Shown in pieces: positions 25,158 to 35,371 of a stretch of 64,000 nucleotides of DNA. Positions within the stretch are counted from its first letter, which is position 1; the number at the start of each line of letters is the position of its first letter. Position numbers and translations under genes: made by a program. This stretch comes from an uncultured Scytonema sp. (lineage in GTDB: Bacteria > Cyanobacteriota > Cyanobacteriia > Cyanobacteriales > Nostocaceae), in assembly GCA_937873135.1 (NCBI GenBank), contig CALMVQ010000191.1:1-64000 (forward strand), written 5' to 3'. The notes below the pieces were generated by a model that worked only from the letters and a program-made list of their open reading frames with translations, made no database searches and was not told the DNA's origin.

Positions 25158-25359
25158 AATTATGGACGAAAATTCAATAAGTTTGGACATAAGTCTCTCA
25201 ATTGAGTCTGTATTATAACTTGCTCATCTAAAAATTTTAATGTTGGATATGTAAAGAGGTAAATATCCAACAAAAATTTGTTTGCTTACCTTTATGGCAC
25301 TTTGATCAAAGCATTTCAGCATTTAATGCTTTCGTCTATTGGAGATTTAGGAGGATTTT

Positions 25360-25656
25360 ATGAGCCATCCTTTCGAGCTAGAACTTTCTGATTTAGAAGC
25401 TGTTGAGCTAAGTTTTGAAGAACAATTAACGTCTGAAGACGCTGGAAAAGTTCAAGGTGGTTTTGTTCCCATTGCTACCACTCAAGCCTTAGGCGAGGAA
25501 GGTGGTGGCGGTTACCATCCCATACCCAAACCCACTCCCAGTGAAACCCTTACTGCTGTAAAATGGGGTGAGTCTGGTGAGGGTGGCGGTGGCGCTACTA
25601 CTTATGCCATAACAGCAAGGTTTGGCGAAGTAGGTGAGGAAGGTGGTTATTTATAA
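25360..25656 (+). CDS. graspetide-type RiPP precursor peptide
   Basis: This 98-residue peptide starts at ATG 25360 with AGGAGG 5 nt upstream. Residues 1-34 look like an acidic helical leader ending in a double glycine (SEDAGKVQGG). The rest is a repetitive core rich in Thr, Gly and Glu. Repeat 1 is TTQALGEEGGGG (40-51), repeat 2 TLTAVKWGESGEGGGG (63-78) and repeat 3 TTYAITARFGEVGEEGG (80-96). Thr clusters followed by Glu clusters are what ATP-grasp ligases join by ester bonds in graspetides such as plesiocin and microviridin. The PFFARFL leader motif and TxKxPSD core of microviridins are absent. The ATP-grasp gene lies 205 bp downstream. No transporter or leader peptidase is adjacent. Confidence 0.8.
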   Translation: MSHPFELELSDLEAVELSFEEQLTSEDAGKVQGGFVPIATTQALGEEGGGGYHPIPKPTPSETLTAVKWGESGEGGGGATTYAITARFGEVGEEGGYL

Positions 25657-25682
25657 TTTTTCTGATTATGAATCTTAGAATC

Positions 25683-25742
25683 GGCACTACCAACCTGCAA
25701 AAAAATGAGGATTTGAGAAAATGGCGGTAGTGCCTTTTTTGA
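25683..25742 (+). terminator. terminator or attenuator between precursor and ATP-grasp genes
   Basis: GGCACTACC (25683-25691) pairs with GGTAGTGCC (25726-25734), followed directly by six T. The loop is long (34 nt). Partial read-through would give more precursor than enzyme transcript. Confidence 0.7.
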
Positions 25743-25861
25743 AAATTTATTTGTATTAAGGACTTTAGTCCTCATCTTTTTGAGGGCTGAAGCTGTGACT
25801 ACAAACAATAGCAAAGTAACTTTGATGGAGTGCTAGGCTTTTCAAGTTTTCAAATATTGTA

Positions 25862-26764
25862 ATGAATATTCTAATTCTTGGTAGTTCTAGGGATGTTGAG
25901 GCAACACATGTGATGAATGCTTTGACACAAGCAGGTGCAGTGGTAAATTACTTAGACACTCTGTTGTTCCCAACTCAGATACAGCTGTCTTGGGAGCCGA
26001 ATACTCAAGCAGGATGCTTGACACTGGCAGGAGGATATCAGCTGAATCTTCAAGATATCAAGAGCGTTTATTGGCGTAATTTCTGCACTCCATACATTCC
26101 CTCATTAAAAGATCCCACTCAGCAAAAAATTGCTTTCAGCGATTCCATGAGTGTATTGCGTTCACTGATACAAGCTTGCCCAGCATTGTGGGTTAATTCC
26201 TGGCAAGCATATCAGTTTCACAAGGAAAAACCCTTACAGCTTAGTAAAGTTAAAGAAATAGGAGTGAAAATTCCAGCTACCTTGATCGGCAACGATCCAG
26301 ATCGAGTGATCGAATTTTCTGAATCTCACCCCAAAATAATTTTTAAGCCAGTCTATGGAGGTACCCATACCCAATTGTTAACAGACTTCCATTTAGACCG
26401 CAAGCGACTAAGTTTGGCACTCAAACTTTCTCCAGTGACAATCCAGGAGTATATTCCCGGCACTAATATTCGTAGTTATGTAATCGCAGATTCGGTTTAT
26501 TCTGCGGAAATTCGCACTCACTCCATAGACTTCCGAGAAGATTCCACAGCTGAGTTGGTTCCGGTAGATCTCCCAGAATCAGTTCAACAGCAGTGTCTAG
26601 CCATTGCTAAAGCATTGATGCTAGAGTGGACGGCTATTGATTGGCGTTTAAATCCAGAGGGTGAATACGTATTCCTAGAAGCTAATCCCAGTCCTATGTT
26701 TGTGAACTTTGAACATCAAACTGGTTTTCCCATCACTCAGGAACTAGTTAAGTTGTTAATGTAA
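25862..26764 (+). CDS. ATP-grasp ligase, graspetide-type (MvdC/MvdD-like)
   Basis: This 300-residue protein has an MvdD-like pre-ATP-grasp region at residues 1-110 (MNILILGSSRDVEATHVMNA, SVYWRNF) and an ATP-grasp fold after it. The fold includes the ATP lysine in KIIFKPVYGG, the hinge VTIQEYIPG, and the metal-binding end VFLEANPSPMFVNFE. This matches ligases that form omega-ester or omega-amide links in RiPP precursors. It follows the precursor gene across a terminator-like hairpin. No second ligase or N-acetyltransferase (the microviridin pattern) is present, so one enzyme may do all cross-links. No clear Shine-Dalgarno precedes ATG 25862. Confidence 0.83.
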   Translation: MNILILGSSRDVEATHVMNALTQAGAVVNYLDTLLFPTQIQLSWEPNTQAGCLTLAGGYQLNLQDIKSVYWRNFCTPYIPSLKDPTQQKIAFSDSMSVLRSLIQACPALWVNSWQAYQFHKEKPLQLSKVKEIGVKIPATLIGNDPDRVIEFSESHPKIIFKPVYGGTHTQLLTDFHLDRKRLSLALKLSPVTIQEYIPGTNIRSYVIADSVYSAEIRTHSIDFREDSTAELVPVDLPESVQQQCLAIAKALMLEWTAIDWRLNPEGEYVFLEANPSPMFVNFEHQTGFPITQELVKLLM

Positions 26765-27471: not shown

Positions 27472-28503
27472 ATGTTCAAAAGAAGGACGAGAAATCAACA
27501 ATCGGTATCTACTATGTCACCACAACAGATTGATTCGCAAAAGTCCCTAGTTAGTGTGATTATCCCCACTTACAATCGTCCAACTTATCTTAAACAGGCG
27601 ATCGCTAGTGCTATTGCCCAAACGTATAAAAATATCGAGATTATTATTTCTGACGATTGTAGTCCTGAGAATCCACAGAAAATCATTGAATCTTTTCAAG
27701 ATCCGCGAATTCGATTCCGCCGCAATACAAAGAATTTAGGAATATCCATAAATGTGATCGAAGCATTCAAGCAGGCACGAGGTGAATATGTAACAAGTCT
27801 GAATGATGATGATATTTGGAATGAAGACTTTTTAGAAAAGCTCGTTCCGCAGCTAGATGCAAATCCCGATCTCGTATTGGCTTTTAGCGATCACCATGTC
27901 ATGGATTCAGATGGCAATATTGATAATGTAGCCACAGAAGAAAATACCAAGCAATGGAAACGAGATCAGCTCACTGAAGGAGTTTACCAACCTTTTTGTG
28001 AAATTGGGATAGTGCATCAGGCTGTGCCCAGTGCTGTAGCGACAGTTATTCGTAGGGATGCTATTGAGTGGAAAGATTTTCAAATACAAATGGGACCTTT
28101 CTGGGATCTGTATCTAACGTATCTTGCTTGTCGTAATGGTGGTGGAGCATATTACTGTCCGGAAAGATTAACTAAGTACCGCGTGCATTCACAATCAGAA
28201 ACTATGATTAGCGGCAAGGTTAATGCTGTTGCCAAGATCCGGAAAAGTAAAGCTAGCCTTTTTTGTTACCGAGAGTTTATGGAAGATGAACGGCTGCAAC
28301 AGTTCAAAAGCTATTTCCGGGAGCAATGGTTGCAGGCACATACCACTTTAGCTATTGGATTGTTGCGCTCAGAAAAAGTGTCAGAAGCACGACCCTATCT
28401 TTTACATGCTCTCAAACAGCAGAAGTTTAATATTCGAACCATCGCCGCACTCATTCTCTCGTTCATACCCAAGCCAGTAGCACGTAGATTGCTGACCAAT
28501 TAA
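27472..28503 (+). CDS. family 2 glycosyltransferase
   Basis: This 343-residue GT-A enzyme has SVIIPTYNRPTYLKQA at about 28-43, the nucleotide-sugar aspartates SDDCS (60-64) and the metal motif NDDD at 111-114. The acceptor region and a C-terminal helical tail follow. Sugar and acceptor cannot be told. Its last three coding bases overlap the end of the convergent PrsW gene. It could belong to the neighbouring methyltransferase gene or stand alone. Confidence 0.9.
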   Translation: MFKRRTRNQQSVSTMSPQQIDSQKSLVSVIIPTYNRPTYLKQAIASAIAQTYKNIEIIISDDCSPENPQKIIESFQDPRIRFRRNTKNLGISINVIEAFKQARGEYVTSLNDDDIWNEDFLEKLVPQLDANPDLVLAFSDHHVMDSDGNIDNVATEENTKQWKRDQLTEGVYQPFCEIGIVHQAVPSAVATVIRRDAIEWKDFQIQMGPFWDLYLTYLACRNGGGAYYCPERLTKYRVHSQSETMISGKVNAVAKIRKSKASLFCYREFMEDERLQQFKSYFREQWLQAHTTLAIGLLRSEKVSEARPYLLHALKQQKFNIRTIAALILSFIPKPVARRLLTN

Positions 28504-29456
28504 ATATATTTGCGAGGTTTAGCGCGTCGTAAATATTGATAAATAAGCCAAGCGAGAAATCCAAAAATCAGATTTAGGGTTAAATTTCTGAGTATAAATA
28601 GCAGAATATCTGGATAAAAAAGCTGCGATGGACTTAAAGGTTCGAGCTTTTTTGCTAATAGAAACAGTCCGAAAAAAGCATTTCCACCCAGCATGAGGGC
28701 AAATACAACCAAACCTTGCTGCCAGTAGCGGCGATAAGGCGTGTTCCCAGAAATTAGGACAAGCGGAATTTTTGCTTGCACTCTCCGCAGTAATTGTTCT
28801 AATCTCCAAAACATCCATAAAAAAAATGGAAACAATCCGTAGCTGAGAAGACGCAGGGGTAACGTAAAACTACCAGCACTAGATAGAGTATTCACTAAAG
28901 CGTGACAGATGACCGAATTTAGCCAACTGCTGGCAAGTAATTTCCTGTTTTTATCATGTGAGCGAATATTTGACCCAATAGATATTCCTAAAGCATATCC
29001 CCAAGGAGCAGAGAGCAGAGCATGAACAGGTGTCCCAATCAATCTTTCTAAAATTGATGCTGTGTCATAAGAAAGATAAATCCAACTTTCTTCAGCGTCA
29101 AATCCTAAAGCAGCAGCTATAGTGAACAGAAAAATAGTACTGGGGCGTAATTGATACCGACGCTGAAGATAATAGGTAGGAACAATAACCGCTATCAACT
29201 TGCAGCTTTCTTCAATTGGACTGATTTCTAGAAGCTGCCGTAAAGCAACACCTAAGAATACTCGCTGCATTTTTTGCCAGTCCACAACTAAGTTAACTGC
29301 TGTTTCAAATACCCATTCCAGGCTGAGGGCAAGTAAACCGGATATTGCCCCGAAAATCAACAATAACAGCAACCGTAACAGAGAAGGGGCAGTAGGAATT
29401 CGATAATAATAATAGACTACAAGCAGTAATGGTGGTATGACCGCCCACAGCGCCAT
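28500..29456 (-). CDS. PrsW family intramembrane metalloprotease
   Basis: This 318-residue protein has about eight membrane helices and the PrsW motifs: EESCK at 82-86, FDAEES at 119-124, HALLS from His145, and CHALVNT with His185. In Bacillus, PrsW starts regulated proteolysis of the anti-sigma factor RsiW. Here the substrate is unknown. It lies 9 bp after the methyltransferase gene on the same strand, so the two probably form an operon. It overlaps the convergent glycosyltransferase stop by 4 bases. Confidence 0.85.
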   Translation of the reverse strand: MALWAVIPPLLLVVYYYYRIPTAPSLLRLLLLLIFGAISGLLALSLEWVFETAVNLVVDWQKMQRVFLGVALRQLLEISPIEESCKLIAVIVPTYYLQRRYQLRPSTIFLFTIAAALGFDAEESWIYLSYDTASILERLIGTPVHALLSAPWGYALGISIGSNIRSHDKNRKLLASSWLNSVICHALVNTLSSAGSFTLPLRLLSYGLFPFFLWMFWRLEQLLRRVQAKIPLVLISGNTPYRRYWQQGLVVFALMLGGNAFFGLFLLAKKLEPLSPSQLFYPDILLFILRNLTLNLIFGFLAWLIYQYLRRAKPRKYI

Positions 29457-32773: not shown

Positions 32774-35371
32774 ATGTTGCAGTATTCTTTTGATACAGAA
32801 AATAATCGGCACAAATCCTTTGAGTTACCAGGAGCAAAACCACACTACAATCCCGATCGCCCCGGACAAGTAGACCATATTTTCCTGGATCTTTGCCTGG
32901 ATATCCCCAATCAAAGTTACCACGGTACTTGTAACATCACTTTAACACCTATTTGCAATGGTGTTGAGCGTCTAACTTTAGATGCTGTCAACCTAAACAT
33001 TCAATCTGTGGAAGTTGATGGAACAACGCAAAAGTTTGACTACGATGGGCAACAGTTGTCGATTGGATTAAATCCAGCAACACAGGTAGACAAGCAAATT
33101 ACCATAGCGATCACTTATTCAGTTGAAAAACCTCAACGTGGGATCTACTTTATCCAACCAAGTACAGACTATCCCCACAAGCCCACTCAAGTTTGGACTC
33201 AGGGAGAAGATGAAGACTCTCGCTTCTGGTTTCCTTGTTTCGACTATCCGGGACAACTGTCAACCTCAGAAATTCGAGTCCGAGTCCCCAAACCTCTAAT
33301 TGTTATTTCCAACGGTGAATTAATAGCTACACAAGATGATGGCGAATACAAAATCTATCACTGGTTGCAGCAGCAAGTCCATCCTACCTACTTAATGACA
33401 ATAGCCGTAGGGGACTTTGCTGAACTTCAGGATCAATGGCAGGAAAAACCCGTAACCTACTATGTAGAAAAGGGACGCGAGGAAGATGCTAGACGCAGTA
33501 TGGGAAAAACTCCTCGAATGATTGAGTTTTTGAGCGAAAAATACGGTTATCCTTACGCTTTTCCCAAATACGCCCAAGTCTGCGTTGATGACTTCATCTT
33601 TGGGGGGATGGAAAATACTTCCACAACACTGTTAACTGATCGATGTTTGCTGGATGAAAGAGCAGCATTAGATAATCGGAACACTGAGAGTTTAGTTGTT
33701 CATGAATTGGCACATCAGTGGTTTGGTGATTTGATAGTCATCAAGCATTGGTCTCATGCTTGGATTAAAGAGGGGATGGCATCCTACTCAGAGGTGATGT
33801 GGACAGAACACGAATATGGTAAACAAGAAGCAGCATATTATCGTTTACTAGAAGCTCAAAGTTATTTAGCTGAAGACAGCGATCGCTATCGCCGCCCAAT
33901 GGTGACACACGTCTACCGGGAAGCGATCGAACTTTATGACCGTCATATATATGAAAAAGGGTCTTGTGTTTATCACATGATTCGGACGGAATTGGGAGAA
34001 GAATTGTTTTGGAAAGCAATTCAATTATTTGTACAAAGTAATACTTTCAAAACTGTAGAGACTGTAGATTTACTTAGGGCTATAGAACAGGCAACCGGGC
34101 GTAATCTCTTGTTCCTGTTTGACCAATATGTTTATCGTGGAGGTCATCCTGATTTTAAAGTGGCTTACTCTTGGGATGGAGATTCACATTTGGCGAAAGT
34201 GACAGTGACTCAAAATGGCGCAACACCAGGAAGTAATTCCAGCAGTGATTTGTTTGACTTAAAGATCCCGATTGGTTTTGGGTATGTCGAAGACAAGGTC
34301 GTTAGTGATTCCCAATCCAAAATCTTCACAGTACGGGTTCATGAGTACGAACAAAGTTTCTACTTCCCACTGTCAGAAAAGCCAAACTTTATCAGTTTTG
34401 ATGTCGGAAACAATTACCTGAAAACAGTATTTTTAGAATACCCGGTACCGGAATTAAAAGCGCAGCTGGAATTTGACCCCGATCCGATTTCTCGAACCTA
34501 TGCAGCCACAGCTTTAGCAAAAAAAGGTGGTTTGGAAGCAGTGAAGGCACTGTCAGCAGCACTAAAAAACGATCCCTTCTGGGGTGTGCGTGCTGAAGTG
34601 GCTAAACAATTGGTAGAAATCAAGTTAGAACAAGCTTTTGATGGGTTAGTGGCTGGATTGCAAGATGAGAATGCTTTAGTTAGGCGATCTGTCGTGGAGG
34701 CACTTGCGAAAATTAAAACCCGTGGAAGCTACAAAGCTGTAGCAGAACTTGTCCAAAAAGGAGATCCCAGTTATTACGTCGAAGCAGCAGCAGCTCGTAC
34801 TATCGGTGCCATCGCGGCAATAGGAGAAGATAAAGCTCACGAAGAAAACGTACTCAAGCTGCTCTCCGAGATTTTGTCAGAAAAGGCAGGTTGGAATGAA
34901 GTGTTACGGAGTGGTGCGATCGCAGGTTTAGCCGCACTCAAAACTTCGGAAGCAGCTTTAAATTTGATTGCAGAATATATTAAAGTTGGTGTGCCACAAC
35001 CCTTGCGTTTGGCGGCTATTCGTGCGCTCGGAAAAATTTCGATAGGTCAAAGTGCTGCAAACTTAGAAAAAATTTTAGAGCGATTGGCAGAAATATCCCT
35101 TGAACCCTTCTATTTAACCCAAATTGCTGTAGCCACAGCTTTGGGACAGATGGAAACTCCCAAGGCAATCAATATTTTGCAAGCGTTAGCTAACCAAACA
35201 CCGGATGGGCGCGTGCGTCGCTATGCTGAAGAAGAGATTTCCAAAGTGCAAAAGAATGTTAGTACAGAAAGTACACTTCTTCAGTTACGTTCTGAATTAG
35301 ATCAACTCAAACAACAAAATCAAGAACTTAGAAGCCGTTTGGAAAACTTGGAAGCGAAATCAAAGGAGTAA
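32774..35371 (+). CDS. M1 family metallopeptidase with C-terminal HEAT repeats
   Basis: This 865-residue protein has an N-terminal beta domain, the substrate-binding GGMENTST and the zinc site HELAH at 310-314, with the third ligand Glu333 exactly 18 residues later (HEXXH-X18-E). The region from about residue 560 holds HEAT/PBS-lyase-type repeats (LKNDPFWGVRAEVAKQL, LQDENALVRRSVVEALAKI). A coiled coil ends the protein (LRSELDQLKQQNQELRSRLE). It should act as an aminopeptidase. The HEAT part replaces the ERAP1_C-like domain of other M1 enzymes. A terminator follows. Confidence 0.93.
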   Translation: MLQYSFDTENNRHKSFELPGAKPHYNPDRPGQVDHIFLDLCLDIPNQSYHGTCNITLTPICNGVERLTLDAVNLNIQSVEVDGTTQKFDYDGQQLSIGLNPATQVDKQITIAITYSVEKPQRGIYFIQPSTDYPHKPTQVWTQGEDEDSRFWFPCFDYPGQLSTSEIRVRVPKPLIVISNGELIATQDDGEYKIYHWLQQQVHPTYLMTIAVGDFAELQDQWQEKPVTYYVEKGREEDARRSMGKTPRMIEFLSEKYGYPYAFPKYAQVCVDDFIFGGMENTSTTLLTDRCLLDERAALDNRNTESLVVHELAHQWFGDLIVIKHWSHAWIKEGMASYSEVMWTEHEYGKQEAAYYRLLEAQSYLAEDSDRYRRPMVTHVYREAIELYDRHIYEKGSCVYHMIRTELGEELFWKAIQLFVQSNTFKTVETVDLLRAIEQATGRNLLFLFDQYVYRGGHPDFKVAYSWDGDSHLAKVTVTQNGATPGSNSSSDLFDLKIPIGFGYVEDKVVSDSQSKIFTVRVHEYEQSFYFPLSEKPNFISFDVGNNYLKTVFLEYPVPELKAQLEFDPDPISRTYAATALAKKGGLEAVKALSAALKNDPFWGVRAEVAKQLVEIKLEQAFDGLVAGLQDENALVRRSVVEALAKIKTRGSYKAVAELVQKGDPSYYVEAAAARTIGAIAAIGEDKAHEENVLKLLSEILSEKAGWNEVLRSGAIAGLAALKTSEAALNLIAEYIKVGVPQPLRLAAIRALGKISIGQSAANLEKILERLAEISLEPFYLTQIAVATALGQMETPKAINILQALANQTPDGRVRRYAEEEISKVQKNVSTESTLLQLRSELDQLKQQNQELRSRLENLEAKSKE

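Follow-up and report, generated by a model that had tools for sequence, protein, structure and literature searches.

The locus described here lies in a 64,000-nucleotide stretch of DNA, analysed as a whole (the window), and it appears, with good confidence, to be a two-gene graspetide system of the plesiocin type: a small precursor bearing three Thr/Glu repeats is followed by a single ATP-grasp ligase, and the peptide is probably looped by ester bonds. The most distinctive element is the third repeat, in which the Thr and Glu residues are more widely spaced than in the plesiocin core; judging by its conservation, it is a real, rare variant, for which we marginally favour a third Thr–Glu bond and, hence, a three-rung topology. 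Set against the accessible literature, the system is of a known kind and the enlarged repeat appears to be a new form. The graspetide assignment made in the preliminary description is upheld by the domains of the ligase, by its best matches (PsnB and MdnC), and by the conserved leader and Thr/Glu core of the neighbouring gene product. The wider interest lies in the rings themselves: how many rings a graspetide has, and how they are nested, determines its rigidity and its potency against proteases, and the tolerance of one ATP-grasp enzyme for differing ring patterns is a standing question.

The precursor gene (25360..25656, + strand), recognized as an open reading frame and from its homologues, encodes 98 residues, and a Shine–Dalgarno-like GGAGG is seen in the sequence 5 bases 5' of its ATG (25350..25354, + strand). 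The graspetide synthetase gene (25862..26764, + strand), assigned from its domains, homology and predicted fold, encodes a 300-residue ATP-grasp protein. Both open reading frames lie where the preliminary description placed them, with a 98-residue precursor that carries a GG site and three Thr/Glu repeats. Between the two genes, a hairpin (GGCACTACC/GGTAGTGCC) with a T run on its 3' side (25683..25740, + strand; −22.9 kcal/mol, z −2.55) could serve as an attenuator; it is not listed by a consensus scan with a loop limit of 8. A conserved terminator at this position was considered and rejected: in a crude scan, a stem with a T run was found in 14 of 40 same-strand precursor–ligase pairs, and the intergenic hairpin is, therefore, not a conserved feature. 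The gene pair itself is not due to chance, as the ligase is present, and the precursor precedes it, in all four genomes of the window's genus, and relatives occur in many other cyanobacteria. These four, referred to below as the four Rhizonema, are the window genome (an assembly of 9.6 Mb in 383 contigs), presumably from a Rhizonema as well, and three others, the contigs of which are titled Rhizonema sp. NSF051, PD37 and PD38. Rhizonema is a genus of lichen cyanobionts.

The leader (residues 1–34; 25360..25461, + strand), delineated by its conservation, has the putative GG cleavage site at its end; 19 positions from M1 to A28, together with G33 and G34, are invariant across six long-form precursors. 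Repeat 1 (25477..25500, + strand), TTQALGEE (T40, T41, E46 and E47), fits the family core TTxxxxEE, as does TTLAIGEE at the end of the solved plesiocin precursor; it is, therefore, by its motif, an ordinary plesiocin-type repeat, and two nested ester bonds are predicted from the family motif and the plesiocin chain. Repeats 2 and 3 do not fit this core. Repeat 3 (25597..25641, + strand; T80, T81, T85, E90, E93 and E94) has the long form TTYAITARFGEVGEE, with R87 inside the inner loop parting WGESGEGGGGATTYAITAR and FGEVGEEGGYL, and alignment leads us to predict three nested bonds. Repeat 2 (25540..25581, + strand), SETLTAVKWGESGE (S61, T63, T65, E71 and E74), looks like a reduced form of the same type, with one or two bonds predicted from the alignment. 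In its layout, P60-S61-ETL-T65-AVKWG-E71-SG-E74-G75, S61 occupies the second-Thr site of the long template, and, with P60 and G75 in place of the first Thr and the last Glu, both members of the outermost pair are missing, as nested pairing predicts. The Thr and Glu residue numbers first given for the three repeats were right on recheck, and the longer spacing in repeats 2 and 3, with a possible different ring size, stands, repeat 3 being a conserved, clade-specific form.

Searches with the precursor returned no Pfam or NCBIfam model for the window protein, and no match over cut-off for the precursors of four relatives in NCBIfam and of two in Pfam; hence the precursor family search proposed at the outset gave no established family, and homologues with a conserved leader and core were found instead. 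Against the PDB, the window precursor gave one match (E 1.1, not meaningful), and that of locus L033 gave three chance matches. The chain of the minimal plesiocin precursor, PsnA2(14-38) (PDB code: 7drm), aligned as GKVTGGKGGPYTTLAIGEE and ending in TTLAIGEE, was reached only by a plainer precursor, that of L089, over a short stretch and with a weak score (E 0.42); we accept this match because the core is identical letter for letter and the molecule is a named one.

How ordinary repeat 1 is becomes apparent from 63 unique precursor-like open reading frames near related ligases, 57 of which begin with an HPF-like leader (typically HPFxL, then an acidic stretch and often GG). They hold 203 repeats ending in E[ED]GG, of which 186 are canonical (TT, TS or ST, exactly four residues, then EE or ED; the usual form is TTxAxGEEGG), 10 are long and 7 are of other kinds, a count that leans towards canonical repeats because an open reading frame was included only if it held a canonical or a long motif. 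TTLAIGEEGG alone occurs 23 times in the cyanobacterial set. The earlier view that the core is only loosely like that of plesiocin has, thus, to be abandoned for repeat 1 and for the family, as repeat 1 and these 186 repeats fit TTxxxxEE exactly. In the 10 long repeats, the Thr pair and the Glu pair are separated by 11 residues (five repeats) or 12 residues (five repeats).

The long form, TTxxxT-(4-5)-ExxEEGG, is found only in one ligase clade, which comprises the four Rhizonema ligases, that of Brasilonema angustatum (L009) and a second copy from Rhizonema PD38 (support 98/94, with the bootstrap not settled, in a tree from which 10 of 93 unique rows, being shorter than 240 residues, were omitted). 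The B. angustatum precursor has the long repeats TTNYVTATVGEAAEE and TTHYITAKKGEAAEE; a second PD38 precursor, found by search, has TTEYVTQPHPSEAAEE and TTHYVTQPHPGEAAEE. The second precursor and second ligase of PD38 lie on contigs other than that of the first copy, and these differ from one another, both genes being at contig ends; presumably, the two belong together. A degenerate remnant of the long form is present in another Brasilonema genome. When the Brasilonema precursor was used as the query, matches were obtained in 29 of 388 genomes of the order, a sample that is without the Brasilonema genome carrying the long form, and among the loci returned, long repeats were seen in the window genome and PD37 only. 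By inspection, loci L166–L203 (of which L187, L189, L197, L198, L200 and L202 gave no open reading frame by the pattern used) show no long repeat beyond the window's own.

Within eight distinct long repeats, aligned by codon, T1, T2, T6, E12, E15 and E16 are invariant in the protein, and all of these except T2, for which a single codon is used, are encoded by two or more codons, whereas all nine other non-GG columns change residue. The invariance of the Thr and Glu columns gives a Fisher p of 2e-4, rising to 2e-3 when the two GG columns, themselves invariant, are placed among the other columns; both values overstate the certainty because the long repeats are related. Likewise, the conservation does not represent many independent events, as it is drawn from two genera, six precursors and one remnant. 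The spacings are constant from T2 to T6 (four) and from E12 to E15 (three), and the length varies only between T6 and E12 (4 or 5 residues), as in a stem that is capped by a loop of varying length. Homologues in which the Thr and Glu positions are not kept had been named as speaking against the assignment; these positions are kept.

It is possible, if rather unlikely, that the long repeats differ from plesiocin hairpins only in the length of the loop, two bonds closing each of them and the inner Thr and Glu being left unlinked. The TT and EEGG elements are common to long and canonical repeats, and the short and long versions of repeat 1 occur under ligases that are 97–98% identical between the window genome and its sister genomes, so that least would be asked of the enzyme if both were bicyclic. 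However, T6 and E12 show the same invariance as the outer residues, and the codons of both have changed synonymously, whereas all other loop residues vary; moreover, the 4–5 residues from T6 to E12 are close to the four in the TTxxxxEE ring and in the TKAWFExGG repeats of some relatives. The latter observation concerns L014, L033, L045 and L091, in which a C-terminal repeat with a single Thr has four residues from Thr to Glu, like the proposed inner pair. As for the enzyme, the window genome has a short repeat 1, the positional counterpart of which is long in each of the other three Rhizonema, and given the near identity of the ligases, one enzyme most likely handles both repeat sizes. Only four residues (A50, P77, S93 and T168) distinguish the long-clade ligases, being fixed in the five long-clade rows of the alignment and present in at most 10% of the 26 others, and so no obvious remodelling of the ligase appears to accompany the bigger ring; T168 is within the GG(A/T)HT loop, close to K162, where the confidence of the model is low. 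The sister genomes, with a short or a long repeat 1 and near-identical ligases, thus constitute a natural experiment on adding a ring.

A second possibility, that repeats 2 and 3 are in decay and carry no modification, with repeat 1 alone being processed, we regard as improbable. It could account for the loss of two of the six positions from repeat 2, for the loss of two from repeat 3 of PD38, and for the degenerate remnant in Brasilonema. Nevertheless, repeats 2 and 3 keep their Thr and Glu residues in all three Rhizonema genomes with an intact ligase, and the precursors of B. angustatum and of the second PD38 copy hold long repeats only, in which case the long form must be the substrate. Repeat 3 of the first PD38 precursor has lost its first Thr and E93, not E94; this goes against nested pairing, as the losses are those of T1 and E15 rather than T1 and E16. 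We weigh it lightly because the adjoining ligase (L008:5001-5900) has TAA at codon 9; with a disrupted ligase, and a precursor beside it that is short of a Thr and a Glu, the first PD38 copy may itself be decaying.

Returning to a third bond in repeat 3, we infer a course of biosynthesis from the observed genes, homology, conservation and codon pattern, and from the predicted fold. The ligase would bind the leader helix and use ATP to phosphorylate the side chains of core Glu residues, and Thr side chains would then attack the activated Glu residues to form omega-ester bonds, one water being lost with each. Repeat 1 would give the usual bicyclic hairpin. In the long template, T1–E16 and T2–E15 would correspond to the adjacent bonds of plesiocin, with T6–E12 as an additional inner pair; repeat 3 would, in consequence, form an enlarged hairpin with T85–E90 nested inside T81–E93 and T80–E94, whereas repeat 2 would keep the inner pair T65–E71 and probably one outer pair, S61–E74. 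At most seven bonds would be expected in the product; the calculated mass of the core (residues 35–98) is 6422.13 Da when linear, 6314.07 Da with six bonds and 6296.06 Da with seven. The core is probably released by a C39 peptidase that is specific for GG and has its gene in another part of the genome.

The most likely role of the product is that of a multi-headed serine-protease inhibitor. This is by analogy, all graspetides characterized by then being protease inhibitors according to the accessible part of one account (PMC8939145). The loops of the short repeats, QALG and LALG, are hydrophobic, whereas those of the long repeats, such as ARFG, AKKG and QPHPG, are basic or Pro-rich; in particular, ARFG, AKFG and AKKG each contain a basic residue, in contrast to the mostly hydrophobic canonical loops. 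We give roughly even chances to the fuller proposal of a new topology, in which a three-rung ester ladder is made by the same single ligase as the short repeat of the same chain, and its basic or Pro-rich loops are, for that reason, directed at other proteases. As a guess, the basic loop residue would suit trypsin-like targets.

The ligase contains, over cut-off, the MvdD pre-ATP-grasp domain PF21068 and the RimK domain PF08443, in agreement with the single ATP-grasp ligase with an MvdD-like front domain first described. Among solved proteins, PsnB (PDB code: 7drm; E 5e-26) and MdnC (PDB code: 5ig9; E 6e-24) are nearest to it in sequence. The AlphaFold2 model, built on an alignment of 31 rows, has a mean pLDDT of 87.7, and among the 50 Foldseek matches listed for it, ranks 1–32 are chains of MdnC, PsnB, AMdnB, PruB, CdnC and MdnB (TM by query length 0.67–0.85); ArgX and RimK come after these, and LysX is also below. 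K162, R204, D260, E273 and N275, which we take to be the ATP- and metal-binding residues of the fold, are invariant in the 31 rows. By homology, the protein is, thus, a graspetide synthetase, and its nearest solved relatives are RiPP macrocyclases and not, as had been held to speak against the assignment, ligases of other kinds. Although a RimK-type domain is present, it is highly improbable that the protein is a RimK- or LysX-like amino-acid ligase with an unrelated small open reading frame beside it: RimK and LysX rank below the graspetide ligases among those 50 matches, and precursor-like open reading frames, grouped as BLAST clusters, adjoin the ligase in no fewer than 31 of the 42 loci compared, a lower bound since those under 70 residues were excluded. 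A RimK-like function is, therefore, rejected. (The 42 neighbourhood loci correspond to 40 distinct ones, as L034 and L067, and L035 and L074, share contigs, and their flank lengths differ.) A microviridin relative, for all that the front domain is MvdD-like and MdnC is a top structural match, is less probable still and is rejected on sequence, as there is no PFFARFL leader, no TxKxPSD core (as already noted in the preliminary description) and one ligase rather than two, and as the window ligase passes neither the MvdD nor the MvdC cut-off, whereas separate ligases and a microviridin precursor of the same genome pass theirs. Counting to some extent against the graspetide assignment itself, the window ligase scores under the curated NCBIfam cut-offs (TIGR04187, the best, 151.3 against 350 bits; TIGR04184, 117.8 against 475; TIGR04185, 101.9 against 425).

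Those separate genes are a microviridin-type precursor (L004:517-684) and an MvdC-type ligase (L004:1447-2421), and, on another contig, an MvdD-type ligase (L003:212-1192) followed by an ABC-transporter-like open reading frame; the two ligases are the other two full-length ones returned from the window genome. The window ligase has its fold in common with the microviridin system (MdnA/MdnB/MdnC), which differs in leader, core and ligase number. As the family shows, plesiocin-type systems occur in many cyanobacteria, apart from microviridins.

OEP6-1, fuscimiditide and amycolimiditide have one hairpin with spaced cross-links. In the accessible part of a recent account, these nested stem-loop graspetides have 2–4 nested cross-links per hairpin (PMC12291112), a nesting that resembles the proposed three-rung long repeat; the latter differs in that two adjacent, plesiocin-like bonds and one spaced inner bond are proposed. 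The closest likeness is to plesiocin (PsnA2/PsnB, group 2): a single ATP-grasp ligase is used in both; the leader ends in GKVxGG (GKVTGG in PsnA2 and GKVQGG here); and there are tandem repeats with the core TTxxxxEE, relatives sharing TTLAIGEE exactly and the window having TTQALGEE in repeat 1. Unlike plesiocin, repeats 2 and 3 do not conform to this core, the ligase and PsnB have ~27% of residues in common in the structural alignment, and the window cluster is without a transporter gene. An NHLM-type transporter is often near plesiocin-type group 2 systems, a co-occurrence rather than a strict definition, according to the portion available of PMC13097080; no such transporter is seen among the open reading frames from 18 to 36 kb (11 named by Pfam, the rest judged by eye). 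In the same portion of that source, groups 27, 28 and 35 comprise nothing beyond a ligase and a precursor, and the precursors of groups 34 and 35 are often long and repeated (PMC13097080); of the 43 published groups of graspetides, the cyanobacterial family could be one of groups 27, 28, 34 and 35. We found no earlier description of the long repeat in the accessible literature, nor in the accessible parts of PMC12291112, PMC7823629, PMC9576775, PMC13003496 and PMC12136951. A search for GEEGG with graspetide gave no match, and the best-ranked matches to the repeat motif shared only GEEGG and were unrelated by title; in what could be seen of the literature on biosynthetic gene clusters of Rhizonema, nothing on these graspetides was found.

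With regard to maturation, no C39 peptidase or RiPP transporter is seen in the window locus; the window genome has nine C39 matches, all over cut-off, and one of these peptidases may be used for cleavage at GG. Across the 42 loci, a C39/ABC-transporter cluster spans seven, with the C39 domain in three (L024, L028 and L071) and other ABC-transporter genes or pieces in the flank of four; a conserved dedicated transporter is, therefore, rejected. In B. angustatum, an ABC transporter lies 3 kb upstream, and no C39 domain was seen in it. A PpiC-type isomerase related to TIGR04500 spans nine of the 42 loci; in the accessible text of PMC13097080, a PpiC-type isomerase belongs to the gene cluster of a graspetide ligase that depends on a partner protein. 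RTX-like proteins form a cluster across 10 of the 42 loci, which is given no weight, as its members are linked by low-complexity repeats.

Upstream of the precursor gene are those for an OprB porin, an Rrf2 regulator, a DnaJ-domain protein and a double 6-pyruvoyl-tetrahydropterin-synthase protein; downstream of the ligase gene are those for a family 2 glycosyltransferase, a PrsW-type protease, a methyltransferase, a DUF3352 protein and an M1 aminopeptidase. The earlier statement that neither a transporter nor a second ligase nor a protease is nearby holds for the first two, the open reading frames around the locus including one ligase for the precursor, an arrangement that is common among relatives, if not universal; it fails for the protease, as a PrsW-type membrane protease assigned by Pfam (28500-29456, − strand) is encoded ~1.7 kb downstream and a family M1 aminopeptidase recognized by a domain match (32774-35371, + strand) ~6 kb downstream. 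Among the 42 loci compared, PrsW recurs only in that of a sister Rhizonema (L007). Further along the window (36242-61876) is a polysaccharide cluster, in which a long series of glycosyltransferases is joined by a chain-length/tyrosine-kinase-like protein, a polymerase-like membrane protein and an ABC exporter, named by eye.

The distribution of the ligase is patchy but wide. With the window's own genome counted in each case, 52 pattern matches among GTDB species genomes yielded 32 loci, and relatives were found in 35 of 217 genomes of the family and 33 of 291 sampled genomes of the order (both at E 1e-40), and in 27 of 386 genomes of the phylum (at E 1e-30), including ~2 Mb genomes outside the window's class. 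In three loci from the latter (L093, L094 and L099), proteins of the TTMALGEEGG type lack the HPF leader; a (GTPGPGVHLDEGQEGKKIQ)n repeat is present in L094, and nine repeats in a 396-residue open reading frame of L099.

Perhaps a more surprising lead than the long repeat is provided by large proteins of 320–600 residues, encoded near members of the ligase family, in which an HPF leader and 7–11 TTxxxxEEGG repeats are joined to other regions (L070:8393-9817, L072:8732-10102, L075:9242-10513 on the − strand, L076:7821-9623 on the − strand and L030:4064-5026). The L076 protein has Calx-beta, and there are FDExxYLxxYxDV-like stretches in L070 and L072 and looser ones in L075. These fusions suggest that a graspetide ligase may cross-link parts of large, perhaps surface, proteins. 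In L014, L016, L020, L036, L048 and L170, a stretch with two Cys residues and a Ser-Glu, CISAPCPGSExGG, is conserved between the repeats and is possibly a further cross-linked or disulfide loop. Finally, in L169, L176 and L194, precursors of the family and the detected ligase are encoded on separate contigs, with two precursors in tandem in L176.
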